The translations under genes and the position numbers were made by a program. The notes beneath the pieces were generated by a model. That model was not told where the DNA came from and did not search any database. It worked only from the letters and a program-made list of their open reading frames with translations. 64,000 bases of DNA. It comes from Actinomadura pelletieri DSM 43383. Lineage in GTDB: Bacteria; Actinomycetota; Actinomycetes; Streptosporangiales; Streptosporangiaceae. This document shows positions 53,623 to 64,000 of this stretch, piece by piece. The stretch lies in NCBI RefSeq assembly GCF_003634705.1, contig NZ_RBWU01000004.1, forward strand, positions 62,001 to 126,000, given 5' to 3'. The first letter of the stretch is position 1, and the number at the start of each line of letters is the position of its first letter.

Positions 53623-54524
53623 GCGAGGTCGTCGTCCTGGTCGGGTTCGACTGCGACTGCCCGCGCGTCCAGTACGGCGTCTCCGGCGGCCAGGAGCACC
53701 TCCACCACACCGTGCTCGGCGTCATGGAGCGGCTCACCGGCCTTCTGCTGCGGGCGGGGGCGGGTCACACGTACTTCCTCAACGGGGGTTTCCTCGAACT
53801 CGCCCGGCACCTCGGCAGCGAGGCGCGGCTGGCGGCGGTGCTCGACGCGGACCCGGTGGAGGTGGGCGACCACGGCTACTCCCACCGGCCGTACATCCCG
53901 GTCGCCGGGCGTTCGGAGTACCGTCCGCTGGACGAGCCCGAGATCGAACTGGAGCTCCAACTGACCCGCCGGCTTCTGGAACGGGTGTGCTCGCGTCCGG
54001 TGGTCGGGGTGCGCACCCCCCTCGGGCACCCCGGCGGGCTGCGCGACCACGAAGCGATCACGGAGATCCTGAAACGGCAGGGCGTCCGTTACGTCTCGTC
54101 CGACCTGCGCGATCCCGACTCGCGGCCGCACGCGGCGCTGATTGACGACTCCGGCGCCGCCCGGCAGCCCTACCGTTACCGCAACGGCCTCCTGGAGATG
54201 CCGTCCCACGGCCACCACGACTCCCACTTCGAACGCGTCGCCCGCGCCGCCCCCGACCGCGCCGACGTCCACCGCCAGGCGTACGAGCACTACCGGCGGC
54301 TGATCGAGGACGCGGCGGCGCTCGCGGCCCGGCGCGCCGAGCCGGTCTACGTCGGCCTCGTGCTGCACCCGTCGAGCATCGCCTGGTACGACCCCGACTG
54401 CCGGGTACTCGACCGGCTCGTCGGGCCCGGCGGAGTCGACGGTCCGGTCCCCGTGACCTTCACGTCCTACCGGGCGGGCGCGGAGCATTCCGCGCGTCGC
54501 CGAACGACCCCCACCCGCCCGTGA
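53619..54524 (+). CDS. NodB-type polysaccharide deacetylase-like protein
   Basis: A 301-residue protein with the NodB-homology pattern. The aspartates GFDCDC (Asp11, Asp13) form motif 1, GDHGYSHRPY supplies the metal-binding His85 and His89 of motif 2, and GVRTPLGHPGG fits motif 3. Such enzymes remove N-acetyl or related acyl groups from sugars or nucleoside-like molecules. There is no signal peptide, so it should act in the cytoplasm, unlike cell-wall deacetylases. It begins with GTG overlapping the methyltransferase stop and its end overlaps the protease gene. Confidence 0.82.
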   Translation: MSEVVVLVGFDCDCPRVQYGVSGGQEHLHHTVLGVMERLTGLLLRAGAGHTYFLNGGFLELARHLGSEARLAAVLDADPVEVGDHGYSHRPYIPVAGRSEYRPLDEPEIELELQLTRRLLERVCSRPVVGVRTPLGHPGGLRDHEAITEILKRQGVRYVSSDLRDPDSRPHAALIDDSGAARQPYRYRNGLLEMPSHGHHDSHFERVARAAPDRADVHRQAYEHYRRLIEDAAALAARRAEPVYVGLVLHPSSIAWYDPDCRVLDRLVGPGGVDGPVPVTFTSYRAGAEHSARRRTTPTRP

Positions 54525-55537
54525 CCCGAGGAGGAGCATTGCCGCCGACCGACGAACAGTTCGGCCGCGCCGTGCGCGTCATCGCGAGACTTCCGATGCT
54601 CGCGACCGAGCGTGACCGGCAGGCGATCGTCATCGCGACCGGCTTCCGGTCGCTGCTCCCGGTCATCGACATCTCCGGGTCGCCGATCAGCGCGAGCACG
54701 ATGCTGCTCGACGCGCTCCGGCGGCGGGGTCGCCTCCCGGACGGGCGGACCGCGTTCGCGGCGTTCCTCACCGCCCTCGCCGAGATGATGGAGGGGGCGG
54801 TCGCCGACGAGCTGGTGGCGATCGTCGAGGACGTGGGCGAGCCCACGCCGATCACGGTTCCCGGTGCCGACCTGCCGCCGCAGCCGCCGGAAGAGAAGAT
54901 CATCGGCACGAACACGCTACGGCCGGTCGAGTTCCTCCGGCTCGGCGCGCGGGCGGCCGAGTCGGTGGCCCGCCTCAGCGTGCGAGTCGGCGGTCGCGTC
55001 CGTTACGGCACCTGTTTCCTGCTCGACGGCGGTGTCATCGTCACGAACAACCATGTGCTGGCGGACGCGGAGGCGTGCCGTCACGCACGCGCGGAGTTCA
55101 ACCTGCTGGAGGAGACGGAGGTGAACGGCGACGGCGTCTGGTCCTACCGGCTGGACCCCGACCGGTACTTCGTCACCGACACGCGGTTCGATCTCAGCGT
55201 GGTGGCCATCGTGGACGCGGCGAACCGTGAGATCGCGACACGACTGTCGACGCGACCGCTCACCGTGGGGGACCGGGTCAACATCGTCCAGCATCCCCAG
55301 GGCGGCTTCAAACAGGTGTCCCTGCAGAACAACCAGGTGACCTATGTCGACGCCGTGCGCGTGCAGTACCGGACGACGACCATGCCCGGGTCGTCCGGTT
55401 CCCCCGTCTTCGACGACGACTGGAACGTTGCGGCGGTGCATTGCCGCGGCGGCCACCTCCAGCGGGGAAGTCGGCAAGAGGTGGTCTTCACCAACGAGGG
55501 GACGCTGTCGTCCGCTCTGGCGAAACTGCTGCCCTAG
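54521..55537 (+). CDS. Cytoplasmic trypsin-like protease with N-terminal helical (EAD-like) domain
   Basis: A 338-residue protein without a signal peptide. Residues ~10-105 are helical (FGRAVRVIARLPMLATERDRQ, later TAFAAFLTALAEMMEGAVADEL) and resemble the effector-associated domains that pair effectors with NTPase sensors in bacterial conflict systems. After a proline-rich linker comes a trypsin-like peptidase with His178 (TNNHVL), Asp224 (RFDLSVV) and Ser292 (PGSSGSPVFD). A protease kept in the cytoplasm must be held inactive, so it is the likely effector of the neighbouring NACHT protein. GTG 54521 overlaps the previous stop; TTG 54539 with GAGGAGG upstream is an alternative start. Confidence 0.8.
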   Translation: MTRGGALPPTDEQFGRAVRVIARLPMLATERDRQAIVIATGFRSLLPVIDISGSPISASTMLLDALRRRGRLPDGRTAFAAFLTALAEMMEGAVADELVAIVEDVGEPTPITVPGADLPPQPPEEKIIGTNTLRPVEFLRLGARAAESVARLSVRVGGRVRYGTCFLLDGGVIVTNNHVLADAEACRHARAEFNLLEETEVNGDGVWSYRLDPDRYFVTDTRFDLSVVAIVDAANREIATRLSTRPLTVGDRVNIVQHPQGGFKQVSLQNNQVTYVDAVRVQYRTTTMPGSSGSPVFDDDWNVAAVHCRGGHLQRGSRQEVVFTNEGTLSSALAKLLP

Positions 55538-55553: not shown

Positions 55554-56498
55554 TTGGCCCGTGTACTGGTCAGTCCGGTGGACACGTCGTCGGGGCTCAA
55601 CGTCGTGCGCGGTCTCCGTGCCGCCCACGACGTCCACGTGACGGGCCTGTCCCGGACCGGGCGCCACGCGGCCCGCGCCTTCTGCGACCGGTTGGTCGTC
55701 GTTCCCGACGGGCGGGAGCGCATGGCCCACATCCGGGACGAGTGCCGGGCCGGTCGCGTCGACGTCGTGCACCCCGGGCACTCGACGGACCTGCTCGCGT
55801 TGTCCGAACTGGCCCGCCGGGAACACGGCGTCCGGACGCGGACGCTGCTGCCACCGCCCGAGGTCGTGGAGCTGTGCGGCGACAAGCTCCGGTTGGGCGA
55901 GGCGCTGACCGGCCACGGGATCGGCGCCGTCGCGACGCGTCCACTCGACGCCGCCGAGGTCGACGGCACCGGCATCCCGGTCCCGGCCTTCGTCAAGCCG
56001 CGGTACGGGACGGGCTCGGTGGGCGCCGCGGTCGTGTGGGACCGTGCCGATCTGCCGGTCCTGGCCCGTGGCGGCGCCGCGATGGTCGTCCAGCCGCTGC
56101 TGCGCGGCACTGAGGTCACCGTGGACTACCTCGCCGGTCATGACGGAGACCTGGTCGCGTTCATGCCGCGGGCGCGGCTGCGCGTCGCGGCGGGCAAGAC
56201 GGTCGTCGGCCGGACCCTTCCGGCGCGCGACTTCCGTGACCTGGTCACCGCCGTGATCACGGCGCTCGGGCTGCGCGGGGCCGGGAACATCCAGGCCTTC
56301 ACGTCCCCCGAGGGGCCCGTCGTCACCGATGTCAATCCGCGGTTCGCCGCCGGCGGGCTGATGCTGTCGGCCGCGGCCGGGGTGAACCTGCCGCTGCTGG
56401 CCACCCGCCTGGTCATGAGCGCGTCCGTCACCGTGCCGGACCCGCGGGCCGGGGTGGAGATGTACCGGTACGAGACCGAAGTGTTCCACTACCCGTGA
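55554..56498 (+). CDS. ATP-grasp ligase-like protein
   Basis: A 314-residue ATP-grasp enzyme of the carbamoyl-phosphate-synthase-like group. The N-terminal pre-ATP-grasp domain starts ARVLVSPVDTSSGLNVVRGLR. ATP-binding segments are PAFVKPRYGTGSVGAAVVW and VQPLLRGTEVTVDYLAG; the metal-binding end is VTDVNPRFAAGG. These enzymes activate a carboxylate with ATP and join it to an amine or thiol. The substrate is unknown. The start is TTG with GGAGG seven bases upstream. It lies 16 bp after the protease gene and 12 bp before the NACHT gene. Confidence 0.85.
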   Translation: MARVLVSPVDTSSGLNVVRGLRAAHDVHVTGLSRTGRHAARAFCDRLVVVPDGRERMAHIRDECRAGRVDVVHPGHSTDLLALSELARREHGVRTRTLLPPPEVVELCGDKLRLGEALTGHGIGAVATRPLDAAEVDGTGIPVPAFVKPRYGTGSVGAAVVWDRADLPVLARGGAAMVVQPLLRGTEVTVDYLAGHDGDLVAFMPRARLRVAAGKTVVGRTLPARDFRDLVTAVITALGLRGAGNIQAFTSPEGPVVTDVNPRFAAGGLMLSAAAGVNLPLLATRLVMSASVTVPDPRAGVEMYRYETEVFHYP

Positions 56499-56510: not shown

Positions 56511-59447
56511 GTGGTCCTCGAGGACGATCTGCGGGAGCGGATCCTCAACGTTCCGCACATCTCGCGCACCACCACGCGCGAGGCGCTGCTGCTGCGCCTT
56601 CCGCGCCGGCTCGCCGAGCGGGTGCCGCTGGCGGAGACCGCGCGTGTCTTCGCCGAGAAGCTGGCGCAGGCGGTCGTCGAGGCCGACCGCTGGCGCCACG
56701 GCGAGAACGTCCGCGCGCTCGAGGCCGCGTGCCATGACCTGAGCGGAGCACCGGAGGAGACGTCGGCCCGGCCCTCCTCCCTCTCCGCCCCGATGTCGCG
56801 ATACCTGTCGACGCTCGCCGACGAACTGCACCACGTGGAGCTGTCGCACATCCTCGCGCAGGGGCTGGTCGAGGTGCAGCTCGCCACCGTCTACTGCCGA
56901 CTGAGCTGCGACGCGGCGATCAGCGTCCGCGTCCGGGACGGCGACATAGCGGAATGGCGGATCCGGAAGAGGACCGCGTCGGGGAGCACCGAGGAATGGG
57001 CCGCGCCGACCCTGCGGGAACCGGCACTGTCCCGGCTCCTGGACCGGATCCGGGACGAGATCTTCCACCGGCGGTTCCAGCGTCCCACGGAGCGGTTGCC
57101 GGTGGTGGCGCGTCCGCTGTCCGCCGACGGGGTCCTGCACCACTACTATCCCCTGTCGCCGTTGGAGGCGGCCTCCCTCGTCGACCATCTGATCATCGTG
57201 GGCGAGGCGGGCAGCGGGAAGAGCACGGTCACCAGGTACCTGGCCTACACCCTCGCCCAGCGGGCTCTCGGCCGGCCGGTCGCGACACGGGAACTGCTGT
57301 CCGTCGACCGGACGCTCGTGCCGATCTACATCCGGATCGCCGACTTCACGCACTGGGCCGTCAAGCAGAACATCACCCGCGACATCGGCACCGACCACCT
57401 GCTCGACTACGTCGCGGAACAGTTCGCCGGGGACGACGCGATCCGCGACGCGTTGGAGGGCGCGCTGAACGCCGGTGAGGCGTGGCTCATCTTCGACGGG
57501 CTGGACGAGTCCCGCGGCTCGGCCGCCCTGAACGCGAACCTGGAGGAGCGCTACCGCCGGATGACCCGGCTGGTGAACCTGGTGGCGGCGCGGGGTTCGC
57601 GCGTGCTGCTGACCTCCCGTCCCTTCGCCACCGGCGAGTACGGCCAACCCCTGTTCGCCGCGGGCTTCGTCTCGGTCGACCTGTGCGGCATGGCGGACCA
57701 CGAGATCGAGTTCTACTGCCGCCGCACCCTGTCCGCCATCGGCTGCCGTCCCGCCGACGTGGACCGGCACTGGACGCAGCTACGCCGGTGGATCGACCGC
57801 GTGGACGCCGACTTCAAACGGCGGGCCCTGTTCGTCACGCTCCTGTGCCTGGTCGAGTACCGCCACGGGGTCGCCAACCTCACCGCAAGCCGCGTCGACC
57901 TGTTGAGACAGGCGTACGAACTCATGGTCTGGCGCTGGCCCGACAACAAACGCTCGGTCGGCGGCACCGGGAAGGAGCTGCCGTACTCGGTGAACGACGC
58001 CCGGCTGAACTCCGCGCTGGAGGTGGTGGCCTTCGAGACGCTCGCCCACGAACCGTCGTGGGACACCGGCTCCGACACCGAGGACGACATCGACAAGGGC
58101 CGGTTCTACCGGGAGCTGGACGTCTTCCGCGAGCAGATGTTCGAGGTCCTGGAGTTCCTCATCGAGGACTCCGGGCTCCTCCGGGTCGTCGGCCCCAAGT
58201 CGCTGCGGTTCAGCTTCCGGATCATCCAGGAGTTCCTCGCCGCCACACATGTGGCGGACACCGGCCGCTTCACCGAGCTGCTGGGCCTCGCCGCCGAACA
58301 GACCGGCCCGTGGGCCGAGACGCTCTCGCTTCTGGCCGAGATGTTGAGTTCCGACGACGACCGTTCCTGGGTGAACAAGCTGATCGACGCCGCCGTGACC
58401 ACGGTGCGGGAGAAACCCGACCACGCCGACAGTGCCGCCTGGGTCCTCGGCCGGTTGTTGCGCGACGAGAAGAGCGCGCGCATGTCGGCGGAGTACGCCG
58501 GCACGGTCCGGGAGATGCTGACCGGGGTGCTGGTCTCCCCGGCGCTCAACGCCGACCAGCGCGACGACGTCGGACGGGCGCTGTCCATCGTCGGTGACCG
58601 GCGGCCCGGGGTCGGTGTGCGGGCGGGCGTGCCGGATTTGGAATGGGTCGACGTGCCCGGCGGGCGCGTCCGGCTGGGCCTTGAGGAGGAGGCGTTCGCC
58701 GAGGCGCTGCGGCTCGGTGGCAGCCGCGAGTTCCTCGCTCCGGAGACACCCTCCTACGAGATCTCGCTGGACGGTTTCCGTATCTCCAAGCACCCCGTCA
58801 CGGCGGCCCAGTACGCGGCCTTCTGGGCGGACGAGGGCGGCGCGTCCGACGAACGCTGGTGGGAGGCGGGAGGGTGGCCGATCTCGTCCGGGCCGCCCGT
58901 CGTGCCACCGGCCGAACGCAACCATCCGGCGACCGAGGTCTCCTGGTACGAGGCGATGGCGTTCGCCAGATGGCTCTCGGACCGGCTGGGGCTTCAGGTC
59001 TCCCTGCCGACGGAGGCGCAGTGGGAGTACGCGGCGCGCTGGGGCGGGCCGGCCGCGAACGTGCCGCCGGGCGACGCCCTGTGGTGCAACGGCCACGCGA
59101 CCGGGCTGGGCAGGCCGAACGCGGTGGGGATCTTCGGGGAGAACGGGCTGGGCGCCGCCGACATGATCGGCAACGTGTGGGAGTGGTGCACGTCGGCGTA
59201 CACCGACGACTCCGGCCGCGTGTTCGGGTACCCGTACGACCCGGACGACGGCCGGGAGTCCCTCTCGCTTTCGGACACGTGCTACCGGGTCGTCCGCGGT
59301 GGTTCCTACACCAACGTCGACTTCATGCTCCGCCCGACCGTGCGCGGCCACGACCGGCCGGACTTCCGTGCCCGACGGCAGGGATTCCGGCTGGTGTGCT
59401 CCCTCGCGGCCGAGACGACGGGTTCAGTCGATGGAACGCCGACCTGA
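56511..59447 (+). CDS. NACHT-type NTPase fused to an FGE/sulfatase-modifying-factor fold
   Basis: A 978-residue protein. Residues ~1-75 are a helical domain like the one on the neighbouring protease (ILNVPHISRTTTREALLLRL). Residues ~200-520 are a NACHT-type NTPase with Walker A GEAGSGKS (231-238), Walker B WLIFDGLDES (~324-333) and a sensor-like LLTSRPFA; a helical region follows to ~700. Residues ~705-965 are a formylglycine-generating-enzyme fold: LEWVDVPGGRVRLG, SLDGFRISKHPVTAAQYAAFW, LPTEAQWEYAARWGG, GNVWEWCTSAY and RGGSY. The two catalytic cysteines expected after RGGSY are absent (TNVDFMLRPTVRGHD follows), so this end is probably a binding or sensing module. GTG 56511 has GAGGAGG upstream. 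The 3' end overlaps the convergent epimerase gene by 24 bp. Confidence 0.85.
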   Translation: MVLEDDLRERILNVPHISRTTTREALLLRLPRRLAERVPLAETARVFAEKLAQAVVEADRWRHGENVRALEAACHDLSGAPEETSARPSSLSAPMSRYLSTLADELHHVELSHILAQGLVEVQLATVYCRLSCDAAISVRVRDGDIAEWRIRKRTASGSTEEWAAPTLREPALSRLLDRIRDEIFHRRFQRPTERLPVVARPLSADGVLHHYYPLSPLEAASLVDHLIIVGEAGSGKSTVTRYLAYTLAQRALGRPVATRELLSVDRTLVPIYIRIADFTHWAVKQNITRDIGTDHLLDYVAEQFAGDDAIRDALEGALNAGEAWLIFDGLDESRGSAALNANLEERYRRMTRLVNLVAARGSRVLLTSRPFATGEYGQPLFAAGFVSVDLCGMADHEIEFYCRRTLSAIGCRPADVDRHWTQLRRWIDRVDADFKRRALFVTLLCLVEYRHGVANLTASRVDLLRQAYELMVWRWPDNKRSVGGTGKELPYSVNDARLNSALEVVAFETLAHEPSWDTGSDTEDDIDKGRFYRELDVFREQMFEVLEFLIEDSGLLRVVGPKSLRFSFRIIQEFLAATHVADTGRFTELLGLAAEQTGPWAETLSLLAEMLSSDDDRSWVNKLIDAAVTTVREKPDHADSAAWVLGRLLRDEKSARMSAEYAGTVREMLTGVLVSPALNADQRDDVGRALSIVGDRRPGVGVRAGVPDLEWVDVPGGRVRLGLEEEAFAEALRLGGSREFLAPETPSYEISLDGFRISKHPVTAAQYAAFWADEGGASDERWWEAGGWPISSGPPVVPPAERNHPATEVSWYEAMAFARWLSDRLGLQVSLPTEAQWEYAARWGGPAANVPPGDALWCNGHATGLGRPNAVGIFGENGLGAADMIGNVWEWCTSAYTDDSGRVFGYPYDPDDGRESLSLSDTCYRVVRGGSYTNVDFMLRPTVRGHDRPDFRARRQGFRLVCSLAAETTGSVDGTPT

Positions 59448-60545
59448 CGCCGGTTCGGCGTTCGGCGGGCGCGTCTCGCGCAACACGTCCAACGCGCGGT
59501 CGAGGATCTCGTGCCACCCGGTCGCGCGGTAGGGAAGGTCGAACGGCCCGGCGCGCCGGACCCGGGCGATGGCGGCGGCGATCCCGGCGGAGTCGGTGCC
59601 GGCCACGACGGCGATGCCCCGGTCGATGAGGTCGCCGTTCCCGGAGAAGGCGCGGACCAGGACCGAACGCCTCCCGAGTATCGCGGCCTCCCGCGGCATC
59701 GTCCCGGAGTCGGTGACGAGGAACGGGGCCGCGGCGACGAGCCGCCAGGTCTCCCGTGGCGTGCGGCCGTCGCGCGGTTCGACGTGCCCGGGAACCGGTC
59801 CCATGGTCTCCAGCAGCCGCCTGAGCTGCGGCGTCAACAGAAGCACCGCGCGTTGCCGCTGCTCGGCCAGGGCCTCGAAGACGGCGGTGACGACCTCCGG
59901 CCGCAGCGTCCAGCTCTTGTGCAGCGTCAGCACCGCGGGCGCGTCGCGGACGCCGGGAGTGGGGACGCCGGCGGCCGGGCCCGCCATGGCCACCTGGCGT
60001 CGGACGAACCCGAGGTGCGGATCGTCGAAGACCAGCACCGGCGCGCCGGGCCGGGCCACGTGCAGGCCGGCGGCGGCGGACTCGCTCCAGCAGACCAGGA
60101 CGTCCGCGTGCTTTACCACGGCCCGCCGGATCTCCGACTCCCGATGGCCCGGCGTCCGGGAGCCGAGACCGGCCTCGGCGTAGACCAACGGCAGTCCCGC
60201 CCGGACGGCGGCCCGCGCGCCGAGGAGCGTGCTGCGCGTGTCGCCCATGACCAGGACCGCGCGGGGGCCGCCCGAGGCGGCCGACCGGGTGACCACCGCG
60301 TCGTGGACCTCCTCGACGGTGGGGTCCCCGCCGGAGCCTCCGGAACGGGGTACGACATCGACGTCGACGCCCAGATCGGTGCGGGGCAGGGCGGCGAGTT
60401 CGGGATCATAATGCTGCCCTGTGTCGAGCAGAACGAGCCGGTCGACCCGCGACGCGTTACCCCGCAGGTCCTCCTGCATGGCCGCGCACTTGATGATCTG
60501 TGGGCGCGTACCGACCACCGCCACGATGGTCCACTTCTCGTCCAT
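59424..60545 (-). CDS. Divergent UDP-GlcNAc 2-epimerase-like protein
   Basis: A 373-residue protein of the non-hydrolysing UDP-GlcNAc 2-epimerase (WecB) fold. Matching parts are VVGTRPQIIKCAAM, LLDTGQHYD, VMGDTRSTLLGARAAVRAG, VYAEAGLGSRTPGHRESEIRR and LVTDSGTMPREAAILGRRSVLVR. Key positions differ from true epimerases: GTRPE reads GTRPQ, the T.HRREN stretch reads LTLHKSWTL, and DSGG reads DSGT. It may act on another substrate or only bind. ATG 60545 is the likely start, ten codons inside the open frame. It runs opposite to the operon and is divergent from the following gene over only ~32 bp. Confidence 0.75.
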   Translation of the reverse strand: MDEKWTIVAVVGTRPQIIKCAAMQEDLRGNASRVDRLVLLDTGQHYDPELAALPRTDLGVDVDVVPRSGGSGGDPTVEEVHDAVVTRSAASGGPRAVLVMGDTRSTLLGARAAVRAGLPLVYAEAGLGSRTPGHRESEIRRAVVKHADVLVCWSESAAAGLHVARPGAPVLVFDDPHLGFVRRQVAMAGPAAGVPTPGVRDAPAVLTLHKSWTLRPEVVTAVFEALAEQRQRAVLLLTPQLRRLLETMGPVPGHVEPRDGRTPRETWRLVAAAPFLVTDSGTMPREAAILGRRSVLVRAFSGNGDLIDRGIAVVAGTDSAGIAAAIARVRRAGPFDLPYRATGWHEILDRALDVLRETRPPNAEPASGRRSID

Positions 60546-60577
60546 CGGCGCCGCCCTTGTCGGATGGAGGATCACGG

Positions 60578-61294
60578 GTGATGACGGAGACGTCTGACAG
60601 TATCGAGCTGGCGAGCAGATTCACCCCCGGCGAGTATCAGGAGCTGCTGGAGAGCTGCCGTCGCGCCCGCTACGCGTTCGTCCTCTCCGGCGCCCTTTCC
60701 GGGCGGTCGACTGCCGGGCGGTCGACGCCACCCGACCGCAGGCGGCTGGTCTGGCTGCGTCACGACGTCGAACTGTCCGCGGACGCGGCGGTCGAGATGG
60801 CCCGCGTGGAGCACTCCCTCGGCATCTCCGCGTCCTACCTGCTCTGCCCGCAGAGTCCCTTCATCCCGCCGCCCGCCCTGCGCGGTCTGGCGGCGCGGCT
60901 CGTGGAGCTCGGTCACGAGGTGGGCCTGCACCTGGTTCACGACGCGGAACACGGGCGCGAGGGGCTCCGCGACCTGGCCGACCAGTGGGCCGGGAGGCTG
61001 GGGCTCGCCGCGGGCCGCCCGGTCTCCCTGCACGCCCCCCGGATGAGGGACGCGGCGGAGGTGGCGCGACGCTGCCCGACGCCCCACCTCTACACCTGTT
61101 ACGTCTCCGGCGGATGGCGGTACCTGTCGGATTCCACCGGCCACTGGCGCTGGGGCCATCCGCTGGAGCATCTCGTCCCCGGCGGCTCCCCGCTGTACGT
61201 GCTGACCCATCCGTTCTGGTGGTTCGGACGTCCGATCCGGCACCCCCGACCGGTGGCCCTGGACTTCCTGCCGCAGTACAACGAGGAGCCGTGA
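60578..61294 (+). CDS. Polysaccharide-deacetylase-like protein (RHDVE type)
   Basis: A 238-residue protein of the NodB-fold group found in surface-glycan clusters. It has LVWLRHDVELSADAAVEMARVEHSLGISASYLL with the metal-binding Asp, then ELGHEVGLHLVHDAE with histidines, VSLHAPR and LYVLTHPFWWFG. A 13-bp direct repeat inside gives the SGRSTAGRST insertion. GTG 60578 has GGAGG seven bases upstream; ATG 60581 follows it. It is divergent from the epimerase-like gene and ends 35 bp before the truncated phenylacetate operon, with no terminator visible. Confidence 0.75.
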   Translation: MMTETSDSIELASRFTPGEYQELLESCRRARYAFVLSGALSGRSTAGRSTPPDRRRLVWLRHDVELSADAAVEMARVEHSLGISASYLLCPQSPFIPPPALRGLAARLVELGHEVGLHLVHDAEHGREGLRDLADQWAGRLGLAAGRPVSLHAPRMRDAAEVARRCPTPHLYTCYVSGGWRYLSDSTGHWRWGHPLEHLVPGGSPLYVLTHPFWWFGRPIRHPRPVALDFLPQYNEEP

Positions 61295-61311
61295 ACGAAC
61301 CGGCGGACCCG

Positions 61312-61335
61312 TCAGGCGTCGCGGGTCTTCACCAT
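61312..61335 (-). pseudogene. paaD: paaD remnant (first seven codons only)
   Basis: Downstream of paaC, ATG GTG AAG ACC CGC GAC GCC is followed at once by TGA. The ATG overlaps the paaC stop in the way a coupled paaD start would, but the frame ends after seven residues (MVKTRDA) and no Fe-S assembly-type PaaD sequence follows. Neither PaaD nor PaaE is present in the window. This marks the point where the operon was cut and joined to the island. Confidence 0.6.
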
Positions 61336-62207
61336 GTCGCCCCCGGGTGGGCGCGGGCCACGCTCTGCGACTCGGCCAGCAGGTCGGTCAGCGCGGCCAG
61401 GTGCGTCCCGTCCCGGCCGGTCGGCCGCGGCGGCGGTGGGACGTCGGCGGGACGCCGCAGCGTCGCCGTCGTCAACACCTCGTCCAGGACCGCGTCGAAC
61501 TCCGCGCGGACGGTGGACGGGTCGACGCCGACACCCGCCGCGGCCAGGTCGCGTTCGACGTCGTGCGCGGTGAACAGCTCACCGGTGTACGGCCACAGCG
61601 CGTCCAGGGCCCGCTGCGCGCGGTCATGGGACAGGTCGGTGCCGTCGCCGAGCCGGATCGTCCACAGCGCGGCGTGGTCGCGGTGGTAGGCGACCTCCTT
61701 GACGCCCTTCGCGGCGATCGCGGCCAGCACCGGGTCACGGGACGCGGTGAGACGGTCCAGCAGCGCCAGCCGCCATGTCGCGAACATCAGCGACCGGACC
61801 GTCGCGTGCGCGAAGTCGCCGTTCGGCAGCTCGGCCAGCGTGACGTTGCGGAACCCGGGCGCGTCGCGGAAGTAGGCGAGCGCGTCCTCGTCGCGGCCCG
61901 CGCCCTCGGCGGCGCCGCCGCGCGACAGCAGCAGCCGCGCCTGCCCCAGCAGGTCCAGCGCGATGTTGGCGAGCGCGACCTCCTCCTCCAGTTCGGGCGC
62001 GTGCGTGCACCACTCCTGCAACCGGTGCGACATGACCAGCGCGTCGTCGCCGAGCATCAGGCAGTAGGCGAACAGGGCGCGCCGGTCGATCCCGTCCGGA
62101 ACGGACGTGTCGATCCCGGCGAGCGGGTCGTGGAACCCGGTGCCGAACGCCCAGCGTGTCTCGTCGTTGTCCTCGGTGATCGCCCCGAGCGCGTTGTCGA
62201 ATGCCAT
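61329..62207 (-). CDS. paaC: Phenylacetyl-CoA 1,2-epoxidase structural subunit PaaC
   Basis: A 292-residue ferritin-like subunit that pairs with PaaA in the phenylacetyl-CoA epoxidase. Typical parts are FAYCLMLGDDALVMSHRLQEWCTHAPELEEEVALANIALDLLGQAR, ELPNGDFAHATVRSLMFATWRLALL and VKEVAYHRDHAALWTIRLGDGT. PaaC keeps the helical fold but is not the di-iron catalytic subunit. It lies seven bases after paaB. The gene is complete, but paaD downstream is truncated. Confidence 0.95.
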   Translation of the reverse strand: MAFDNALGAITEDNDETRWAFGTGFHDPLAGIDTSVPDGIDRRALFAYCLMLGDDALVMSHRLQEWCTHAPELEEEVALANIALDLLGQARLLLSRGGAAEGAGRDEDALAYFRDAPGFRNVTLAELPNGDFAHATVRSLMFATWRLALLDRLTASRDPVLAAIAAKGVKEVAYHRDHAALWTIRLGDGTDLSHDRAQRALDALWPYTGELFTAHDVERDLAAAGVGVDPSTVRAEFDAVLDEVLTTATLRRPADVPPPPRPTGRDGTHLAALTDLLAESQSVARAHPGATW

Positions 62208-62214
62208 GGCGGCC

Positions 62215-62473
62215 TCACATGTGCGGGACGTTCTCGGGGATGTCGTAGAACGTCGGGTGCCGGTAGACCTTGTCGCCGCTGGGGGCGAAGAAGGGGTCCT
62301 TCTCGTCCGGGCTGGACGCGGTGATGTCCTTCGCCTTCACGACCCAGATGCTCACGCCCTCGTTCCGCCTCGTGTAGAGGTCGCGGGCGTTGTGGAGGGC
62401 CATCGTGGCGTCGGCGGCGCGCAGCGACCCGACGTGCACGTGGTTCAGGCCGCGCTTGCCCCGGACGAACACC

Positions 62474-62499
<26 letters not shown>
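62215..62499 (-). CDS. paaB: Phenylacetyl-CoA 1,2-epoxidase subunit PaaB
   Basis: A 94-residue PaaB protein with the family stretches [47 protein letters not shown] and [16 protein letters not shown]. PaaB bridges PaaAC heterodimers in the complex. ATG 62499 follows GAGGAGAC and a GTG one codon earlier is possible. It overlaps paaA by 26 bp. Confidence 0.96.
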
Positions 62500-63439
<940 letters not shown>

Positions 63440-63440
63440 G

Positions 63441-64000
63441 TCACTCCTCGGGGCGCTTGGCGACCAGCGTGAGAACGTCGTACTTCGCGACCGAGGCGCC
63501 CTCCTGGTTGGTGACGTCGGTGTCCCAGCGGACCTCGCCGTAGTCGGCCCCCTCGCGGGGGGTGATCTGCTTGGCGGTGAGGGTGACGGTCAGTTCGTCG
63601 CCGGGCTTGACCGGGGCGAGGAACCGCAGGTTCTCCAGCCCGTAGTTGGCCAGGACGGGGCCTGGCGCGGGGTCGACGAACAGCCCGGCCGCGAACGACA
63701 CGATCAGGTAGCCGTGCGCGACACGGCCACCGAAGAACGGGTTGGCGCGGGCGGCGTCCTCGTCCATGTGCGCGTAGAAGGTGTCGCCGGTGAACTCGGC
63801 GAAGTGCTCGATGTCGTCGAGGGTGACGACGCGCGGCCCGCCGACGACCGTGTCGCCCACCGCGAGCTCTTCGAGATGTCTGCGGAACGGATGCGGCGTG
63901 CTCTGGGCGCGCGGCGCCCTGGGCGTCCAGCGACCGGTGATCGCGGTGAGCATCGCGGGTCCGGCCTGGACGGCGGTGCGCTGCATGTGGTGGACGATGC
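63441..64000 (-). CDS. paaZ: PaaZ, oxepin-CoA hydrolase/aldehyde dehydrogenase (3' part only)
   Basis: This is the C-terminal end of the bifunctional PaaZ, continuing past the right edge. The first readable residues, [22 protein letters not shown], are the usual end of the aldehyde-dehydrogenase domain. A MaoC-type hydratase domain follows with the catalytic Asp/His pair in [10 protein letters not shown] and the motif [12 protein letters not shown]. An internal ATG at 63986 is not the real start. It is the first gene of the paaZ-A-B-C order. Confidence 0.9.

Follow-up and report, generated by a model that had tools for sequence, protein, structure and literature searches.

Two species of Actinomadura, the window strain A. 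pelletieri DSM 43383 and A. spongiicola, carry a paaZABC operon that has lost its paaD and paaE genes, and the comparison of their genomes suggests, with a probability that we put at about 0.75, that the epoxidase core PaaABC1 encoded there is served in trans by PaaD2 and PaaE2 from a second, diverged paa cluster, a natural hybrid epoxidase to which complementary losses in the two clusters would have led. As cluster 2 of the window strain supplies paaA2B2C2D2E2, the PaaABC1 enzyme is probably not orphaned there. By the window we mean the whole 64-kb stretch of DNA that was analysed (G000:C4:62001-126000), where G000 denotes the window genome (7.53 Mb in 15 contigs); G057 denotes A. spongiicola LHW52907 (NZ_QVNQ01000005.1), and other numbers of this kind are further genomes of the genus Actinomadura.

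The initial annotation, made from the window, described paaZABC as intact, paaD as ending after seven codons and paaE as absent. The first two statements stand: paaZ1 runs past the end of the window and is whole in the genome (TIGR02278 PaaZ, 1002 bits against a cut-off of 562.8 in an NCBIfam profile search), and PaaA, PaaB and PaaC are all present at the locus (PF05138 twice and PF06243 above cut-off, with TIGR02158 for PaaC1; Table 1). The start of paaD1 at 61335 overlaps the stop codon of paaC1 (ATGGTGA) and its frame closes at 61312, while likeness to the intact paaD of three relatives (G042, G046 and G048) is gone after about codon 5, near 61321. No paaE was found at the paaZABC1 locus, and paaD and paaE do not stand in the same operon as paaABC1. 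The absence of paaE is true of the locus and not of the genome, which encodes one close PaaD and one close PaaE, namely PaaD2 and PaaE2.

Table 1. Features of the truncated paa locus, in positions of the window
Feature	Position	Strand	Basis or remark
paaZ1, 3' part	63441..64000	-	Continues beyond window end; full gene C4:125441-127477, 678 aa
paaA1, phenylacetyl-CoA epoxidase catalytic subunit	62474..63439	-	PF05138, 326.7 bits
paaB1, bridging subunit	62215..62502	-	PF06243, 145.6 bits
paaC1, structural subunit, last intact gene	61329..62207	-	TIGR02158, 265.4 bits (cut-off 133.35)
paaD1 stub, MVKTRDA*	61312..61335	-	Sequence and alignment with G057, G042, G048 and G046
Rearrangement junction between paaD1 stub and convergent lineage-specific gene	61295..61320	.	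Common to A. spongiicola G057
Convergent lineage-specific gene, 237 aa	60581..61294	+	Without Pfam family

The convergent gene gave no match in a Pfam search of 60590-61294 and is present in 2 of 65 Actinomadura genomes, G000 and G057. Its 3' end lies about 26 bp from the break in paaD1, and its restriction to these two genomes marks the junction as the edge of a rearrangement. At lower coordinates of the window stand the genes of a trypsin-like peptidase with effector-associated domain EAD8 (54521-55537), an ATP-grasp protein (55554-56498) and a NACHT/FGE-sulfatase fusion (56511-59447), a row which resembles a STAND-type signalling or defence set, and then a UDP-GlcNAc 2-epimerase family gene (59424-60575) whose protein identity between G000 and G057, 84%, is below that of the measured neighbours.

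Such a break is rare. When the coordinates of PaaC and PaaD matches in the 65 Actinomadura genomes were compared, paaD was found to adjoin 60 of the 62 paaC genes (58 genomes have paaC); the two remaining are the window locus and its ortholog in G057, which has an equivalent stub (MVKTHDD*), the same junction and the same convergent neighbour. A second collection gave a similar picture, with paaD behind paaC in 79 of 80 loci among the matches listed (536 confirmed), A. spongiicola being the exception, and paaE at most 3.5 kb behind paaC in 77 of 80 loci among the matches listed, two of the three misses being stretches which end within 350 bp of paaC; this collection shares genomes with the genus set, so the counts overlap, and it may omit the window's own genome. 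The uninterrupted operon proposed for related strains does exist, with paaD, and paaE where the sequence allows, directly behind paaC. In the available passages of Martin and McInerney (2009), the genes paaA to paaD are likewise reported in one operon in 25 of 25 cases (PMC2653477), and no description of a split of this kind was found among open-licence PMC papers. Since stub and junction are common to G000 and G057, the break predates the separation of the two; on this evidence the intact paa operon is the ancestral state, and the break is lineage-specific and older than the two-species split. An assembly error is unlikely: the paaD1 junction appears in two assemblies about 5% apart in DNA here, and no N occurs in the two stretches analysed.

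The genes which could make good the loss lie in the same contig. A second paaA/paaC pair of G000, at C4:196.7-198.8 kb and about 75 kb from cluster 1, is followed behind paaC2 by paaD2 and paaE2 (C4:198818-200402; PaaD2 190.9 bits against a cut-off of 108.15 and PaaE2 463.8 bits against 420.8, NCBIfam) and then by paaJ-, paaG- and paaH-like frames, these three named by eye. PaaA2, PaaB2, PaaC1, PaaC2, PaaD2 and PaaE2, together with a PaaK at C4:183269, score above NCBIfam cut-offs, PaaA1 and PaaB1 above those of Pfam, and the window genome has in total two paaA/paaC pairs, one close PaaD and one close PaaE. Just behind cluster 2 there is an NB-ARC/TPR-like gene (G000:C4:203761-206277), then a radical-SAM-like gene on the opposite strand, both named by eye. 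A recent duplication of paaABC does not account for the two pairs, because the paaABC1 and paaABC2 regions share about 75% DNA identity, PaaC1 and PaaC2 share 60% protein identity, and types 1 and 2 form distinct clades in both the PaaA and the PaaC tree; judged by these distances, the two regions are paralogs or xenologs of long standing. Identity of PaaD2 and PaaE2 to their type-1 counterparts in relatives is about 61-67%. A complete cluster 2, with paaZ2 and paaK, is found in G006, where 15.6 kb match the DNA of G000 at 91.8% and 6.6 kb at 89.7%, and G000 is without the paaZ2 of G006 (the gap falls between C4:196486 and 196585). Synonymous divergence would fit a transfer of cluster 2 between the G006 and G000 lines as well as descent, the values being alike (0.16-0.32 for cluster 2 versus 0.28-0.36 for cluster 1 and 0.20 for rpoB).

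A. spongiicola has lost the reciprocal part. Its genome matches G000 C4:62-179 kb in pieces 92.7-95.8% identical and in a single order, and contains one paaC, of type 1. Its only full-length paaD lies away from paaC, at C25:510.5-511.0 kb, with the one close copy of paaE behind it. Here a scar, known from one assembly (MTGQDVAERELAARPGAW*), joins the first 14 codons of paaA2 in frame to the last codons of paaC2, after which paaD2E2 follow intact; the scar retains the upstream region of paaA2 and the overlap into paaD2. Missing in G057 are also about 17.6 kb upstream of cluster 2, including paaK, and most of paaH at the cluster 2 site. No close PaaK was found in A. spongiicola, where a 39% partial match remains that is also present in G000. 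In G000 the stretch C4:179-196 kb is a catabolic block, largely common to G006, with pdhA-like, paaK, hydantoinase-like and ABC transporter genes, mostly named by eye. Of paaZ2 a remnant of 68 bp is left in G057, which matches the G006 gene at 84% across a one-base gap, and this remnant, taken with the complete G006 block, gives the direction of loss: by parsimony, G057 would have lost paaABC2, and both species paaZ2. Trees built from 37 PaaA, 37 PaaC, 35 PaaD and 34 PaaE sequences group the PaaA and PaaC of G057 with type 1, and its PaaD and PaaE with the type 2 of G000 and G006; type-1 ABC and type-2 DE lie about 54 kb apart in this species. The initial annotation could see neither the second cluster, with its intact D and E, nor the reciprocal loss in A. 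spongiicola. We would tentatively extend the argument to an obligate hybrid monooxygenase in A. spongiicola, created by complementary deletions, with the scar kept for the expression of paaD2E2 and phenylacetyl-CoA made by a route other than paaK, though this particular scenario has somewhat less than an even chance of being right.

The history of cluster 1 can be traced in part from its former site. Upstream of paaZ1 in 18 of 18 type-1 relatives compared, a comparison which left out the type-1 stretches of G018, G037 and G061, stands a TetR gene matching a copy on contig C6 of G000; in G027, G058 and G006, without paaZ there, it precedes paaA1 instead, and for 14 of these 18 relatives similarity extends into pdhABC-like genes (pdh named by eye). 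TetR and pdhABC-like genes are found at C6:217-221 kb in G000, where the TetR has 94% protein identity to that of G042, and at C26:106 kb in G057, and at this old site the likeness ends a little beyond the start of TetR, at the place where paaZ lies in most relatives. The next-best TetR among the matches listed reaches at most 64 bits in G000 and 57 bits in G057, the cluster-2 TetR of G006 scoring 204 bits, and no second TetR like this G006 gene was found in G000 or G057 among the same matches. The gene fits no NCBIfam family above cut-off; its position and the type of operator suggest a PaaR-like regulator, GACCGATCGGTC upstream of paaA2 in both species being close to the Burkholderia PaaR operator given in the passages available of PMC9493321. 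No remnants of paaD1E1 were detected by blastn in 40 kb around the old site in each genome. The search suggested by the initial annotation for a matching half elsewhere also came back empty, with no type-1 paaD or paaE in G000 or G057 (assemblies about 97% complete). With neither gene found in the two assemblies and the TetR gene on another contig, paaZABC1 has probably been relocated.

The foreign other flank and the regulator elsewhere mean that the block either moved, or was lost at the old site and regained at the present one. The second course, in which a truncated horizontal acquisition of paaZABC only replaced a lost native cluster 1, we consider unlikely. It would explain why PaaC1 is closest to G042, G046 and G048 (82-86%; joined with them at 0.969 in the PaaC tree), though an rpoB tree of 30 genomes, in which G000 and G057 are united with support 1.0, is drawn with both outside the G042/G006 group, why the PaaA tree puts them with G027 instead (0.864), and why TetR and the pdhABC-like genes were kept at the old site. 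However, the TetR left behind is closest to the same three genomes as PaaC1 (about 90-91% in DNA), so the two pieces may share one history. The synonymous divergences are compatible with either course. Several genomes (e.g. G007, G008, G017, G024, G047, G050 and G051) matched the full RpoB query twice, with 92-95% identity to G000 RpoB in the weaker match; G000 and G057 have one match.

In the initial annotation the junction was read as that of an insertion or rearrangement, of which the rearrangement edge is upheld and an insertion splitting the operon, with its other half nearby, is not. That the operon was severed by a mobile island entering paaD, the rest of paaD and paaE lying nearby or being lost, would agree with an abutting gene confined to so few genomes and ending so close to the break, but is highly improbable given that the matching half is found in neither species, and that the other flank is foreign too and the regulator sits at another site. 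The 64-kb window contains no tRNA. G000 does carry a 12-bp direct repeat, ACCCGTCAGGCG, at both borders of paaZABC (window 61307-61318 and C4:127650-127661); on reading, it does not recur at the equivalent positions of G057, where the sequence differs, and for this reason it was set aside.

With its relocation probable, the question is whether the shortened operon still works. Between G000 and G057, dN/dS is 0.017/0.101 for paaZ1, 0.009/0.112 for paaA1 and 0.027/0.110 for paaC1, and paaB1 shows zero amino-acid changes, which gives ratios of about 0.17 for paaZ1, 0.08 for A1, 0 for B1 and 0.25 for C1, next to 0.19 for D2 and 0.25 for E2; a separate estimate gave similar values. When changes in A1, B1 and C1 were polarised with G042, 11 ambiguous ones being dropped, the G000 branch had 16 synonymous and 5 non-synonymous changes and the G057 branch 25 and 16. 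Against the 75% non-synonymous changes expected from site counts, a neutral expectation that ignores codon and mutation bias, P is about 1e-6 on each branch, and against 60% it is 8e-4 (G000) and 5e-3 (G057). Non-synonymous counts below expectation indicate that PaaABC1 stayed constrained after losing D and E, and by this measure it is under purifying selection in both species. Of co-adaptation of the type-1 cores to type-2 partners the residues give no sign: none of 5 lineage-specific PaaABC1 changes goes toward type-2 residues (22 of 189 in controls) and 1 of 10 in D2/E2 goes toward type 1 (7 of 78 in controls; G026 left out of both).

These results bear on two other explanations. Simple decay, with cluster 1 a dying relic, the A. 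spongiicola route lost piecewise and no hybrid enzyme at work, would be in keeping with the absence from A. spongiicola of a close paaK, of most of paaH at the cluster 2 site, of paaZ2 and of paaABC2, and with paaD1E1 being found in neither species. It is nevertheless quite unlikely, as the frames of paaZ1, A1, B1, C1, D2 and E2 remain open in G000 and G057 alike at dN/dS from 0 to 0.25, the branch counts fall below neutral expectation, and the G057 deletion spared the upstream region and the translational overlap of paaD2. Alternatively, cluster 1 may have been recruited to a reaction without need of PaaD and PaaE, or may use a general ferredoxin reductase; other reductases, 27-35% identical over parts, do occur in both genomes, and A. 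spongiicola has no close PaaK. We regard this as very unlikely, since paaZ1 and (by eye) a PaaR-type operator still stand beside paaABC1, and PaaA1 has only 2 lineage-specific changes at conserved positions.

We therefore return to sharing between the clusters, which may be pictured as follows. The common ancestor of the two species would have had two diverged paa clusters. In both species cluster 1 now lies apart from its TetR regulator and lacks paaD and paaE, as can be read directly from the sequences; these also show cluster 2 lacking paaZ2 in the window strain and, in A. spongiicola, paaA2B2C2, all but a scrap of paaZ2 and about 17.6 kb upstream. PaaE2 as reductase and PaaD2 as maturation factor would then act in trans on PaaABC1, giving one PaaDE pair for two PaaABC cores in the window strain and a PaaABC1/PaaDE2 hybrid as the sole epoxidase of A. 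spongiicola, and each loss may have been tolerated because the other cluster covered it. According to passages of two papers, PaaE carries NADPH electrons to the di-iron centre of PaaA, is required and is the most weakly bound subunit, and PaaD is needed in vivo and dispensable in vitro (PMC4498308, PMC9493321); PaaE, for its weak binding, and PaaD, as a maturation factor, may well be the parts most easily shared in trans. A 2026 survey, in the part available, states that some strains, in some conditions, can do without PaaD and PaaE (PMC13186573), which might hold for PaaABC1 too, and the pathway of A. spongiicola, without a close PaaK and most of paaH, may be decaying or fed otherwise.

The species pair resembles a natural part-swap in which PaaD2 and PaaE2 seem to replace type-1 PaaD and PaaE. 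If this is true, the partner specificity of PaaE and the role of PaaD in vivo become directly testable, and the pair shows how complementary losses can reduce paralogous clusters of one genome to a single mosaic pathway. In the passages available of PMC2653477, paaABCDE is kept together as one heteromeric complex, with paaA to paaD reported as always in one operon. Like that operon, G000 encodes all five subunit families; unlike it, paaABC1 has neither D nor E beside it, and the ABC and DE genes of A. spongiicola are of different cluster types, some 54 kb from each other. The same source describes Bordetella pertussis Tohama I as having paaE displaced, where the likeness is a reductase gene lost from a paa cluster; that strain is said to lack paaE, whereas in the present case D and E are encoded by a second cluster and the sister species shows the reciprocal loss. 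A precedent for sharing is offered by the ring-hydroxylating oxygenases of sphingomonads, in which, according to the abstract and passages of PMC4048848, one electron-transfer set serves several terminal oxygenases encoded elsewhere; those enzymes are Rieske-type and expression-tested, whereas the Paa epoxidase is a di-iron enzyme, for which such sharing is what we infer here from its genes.
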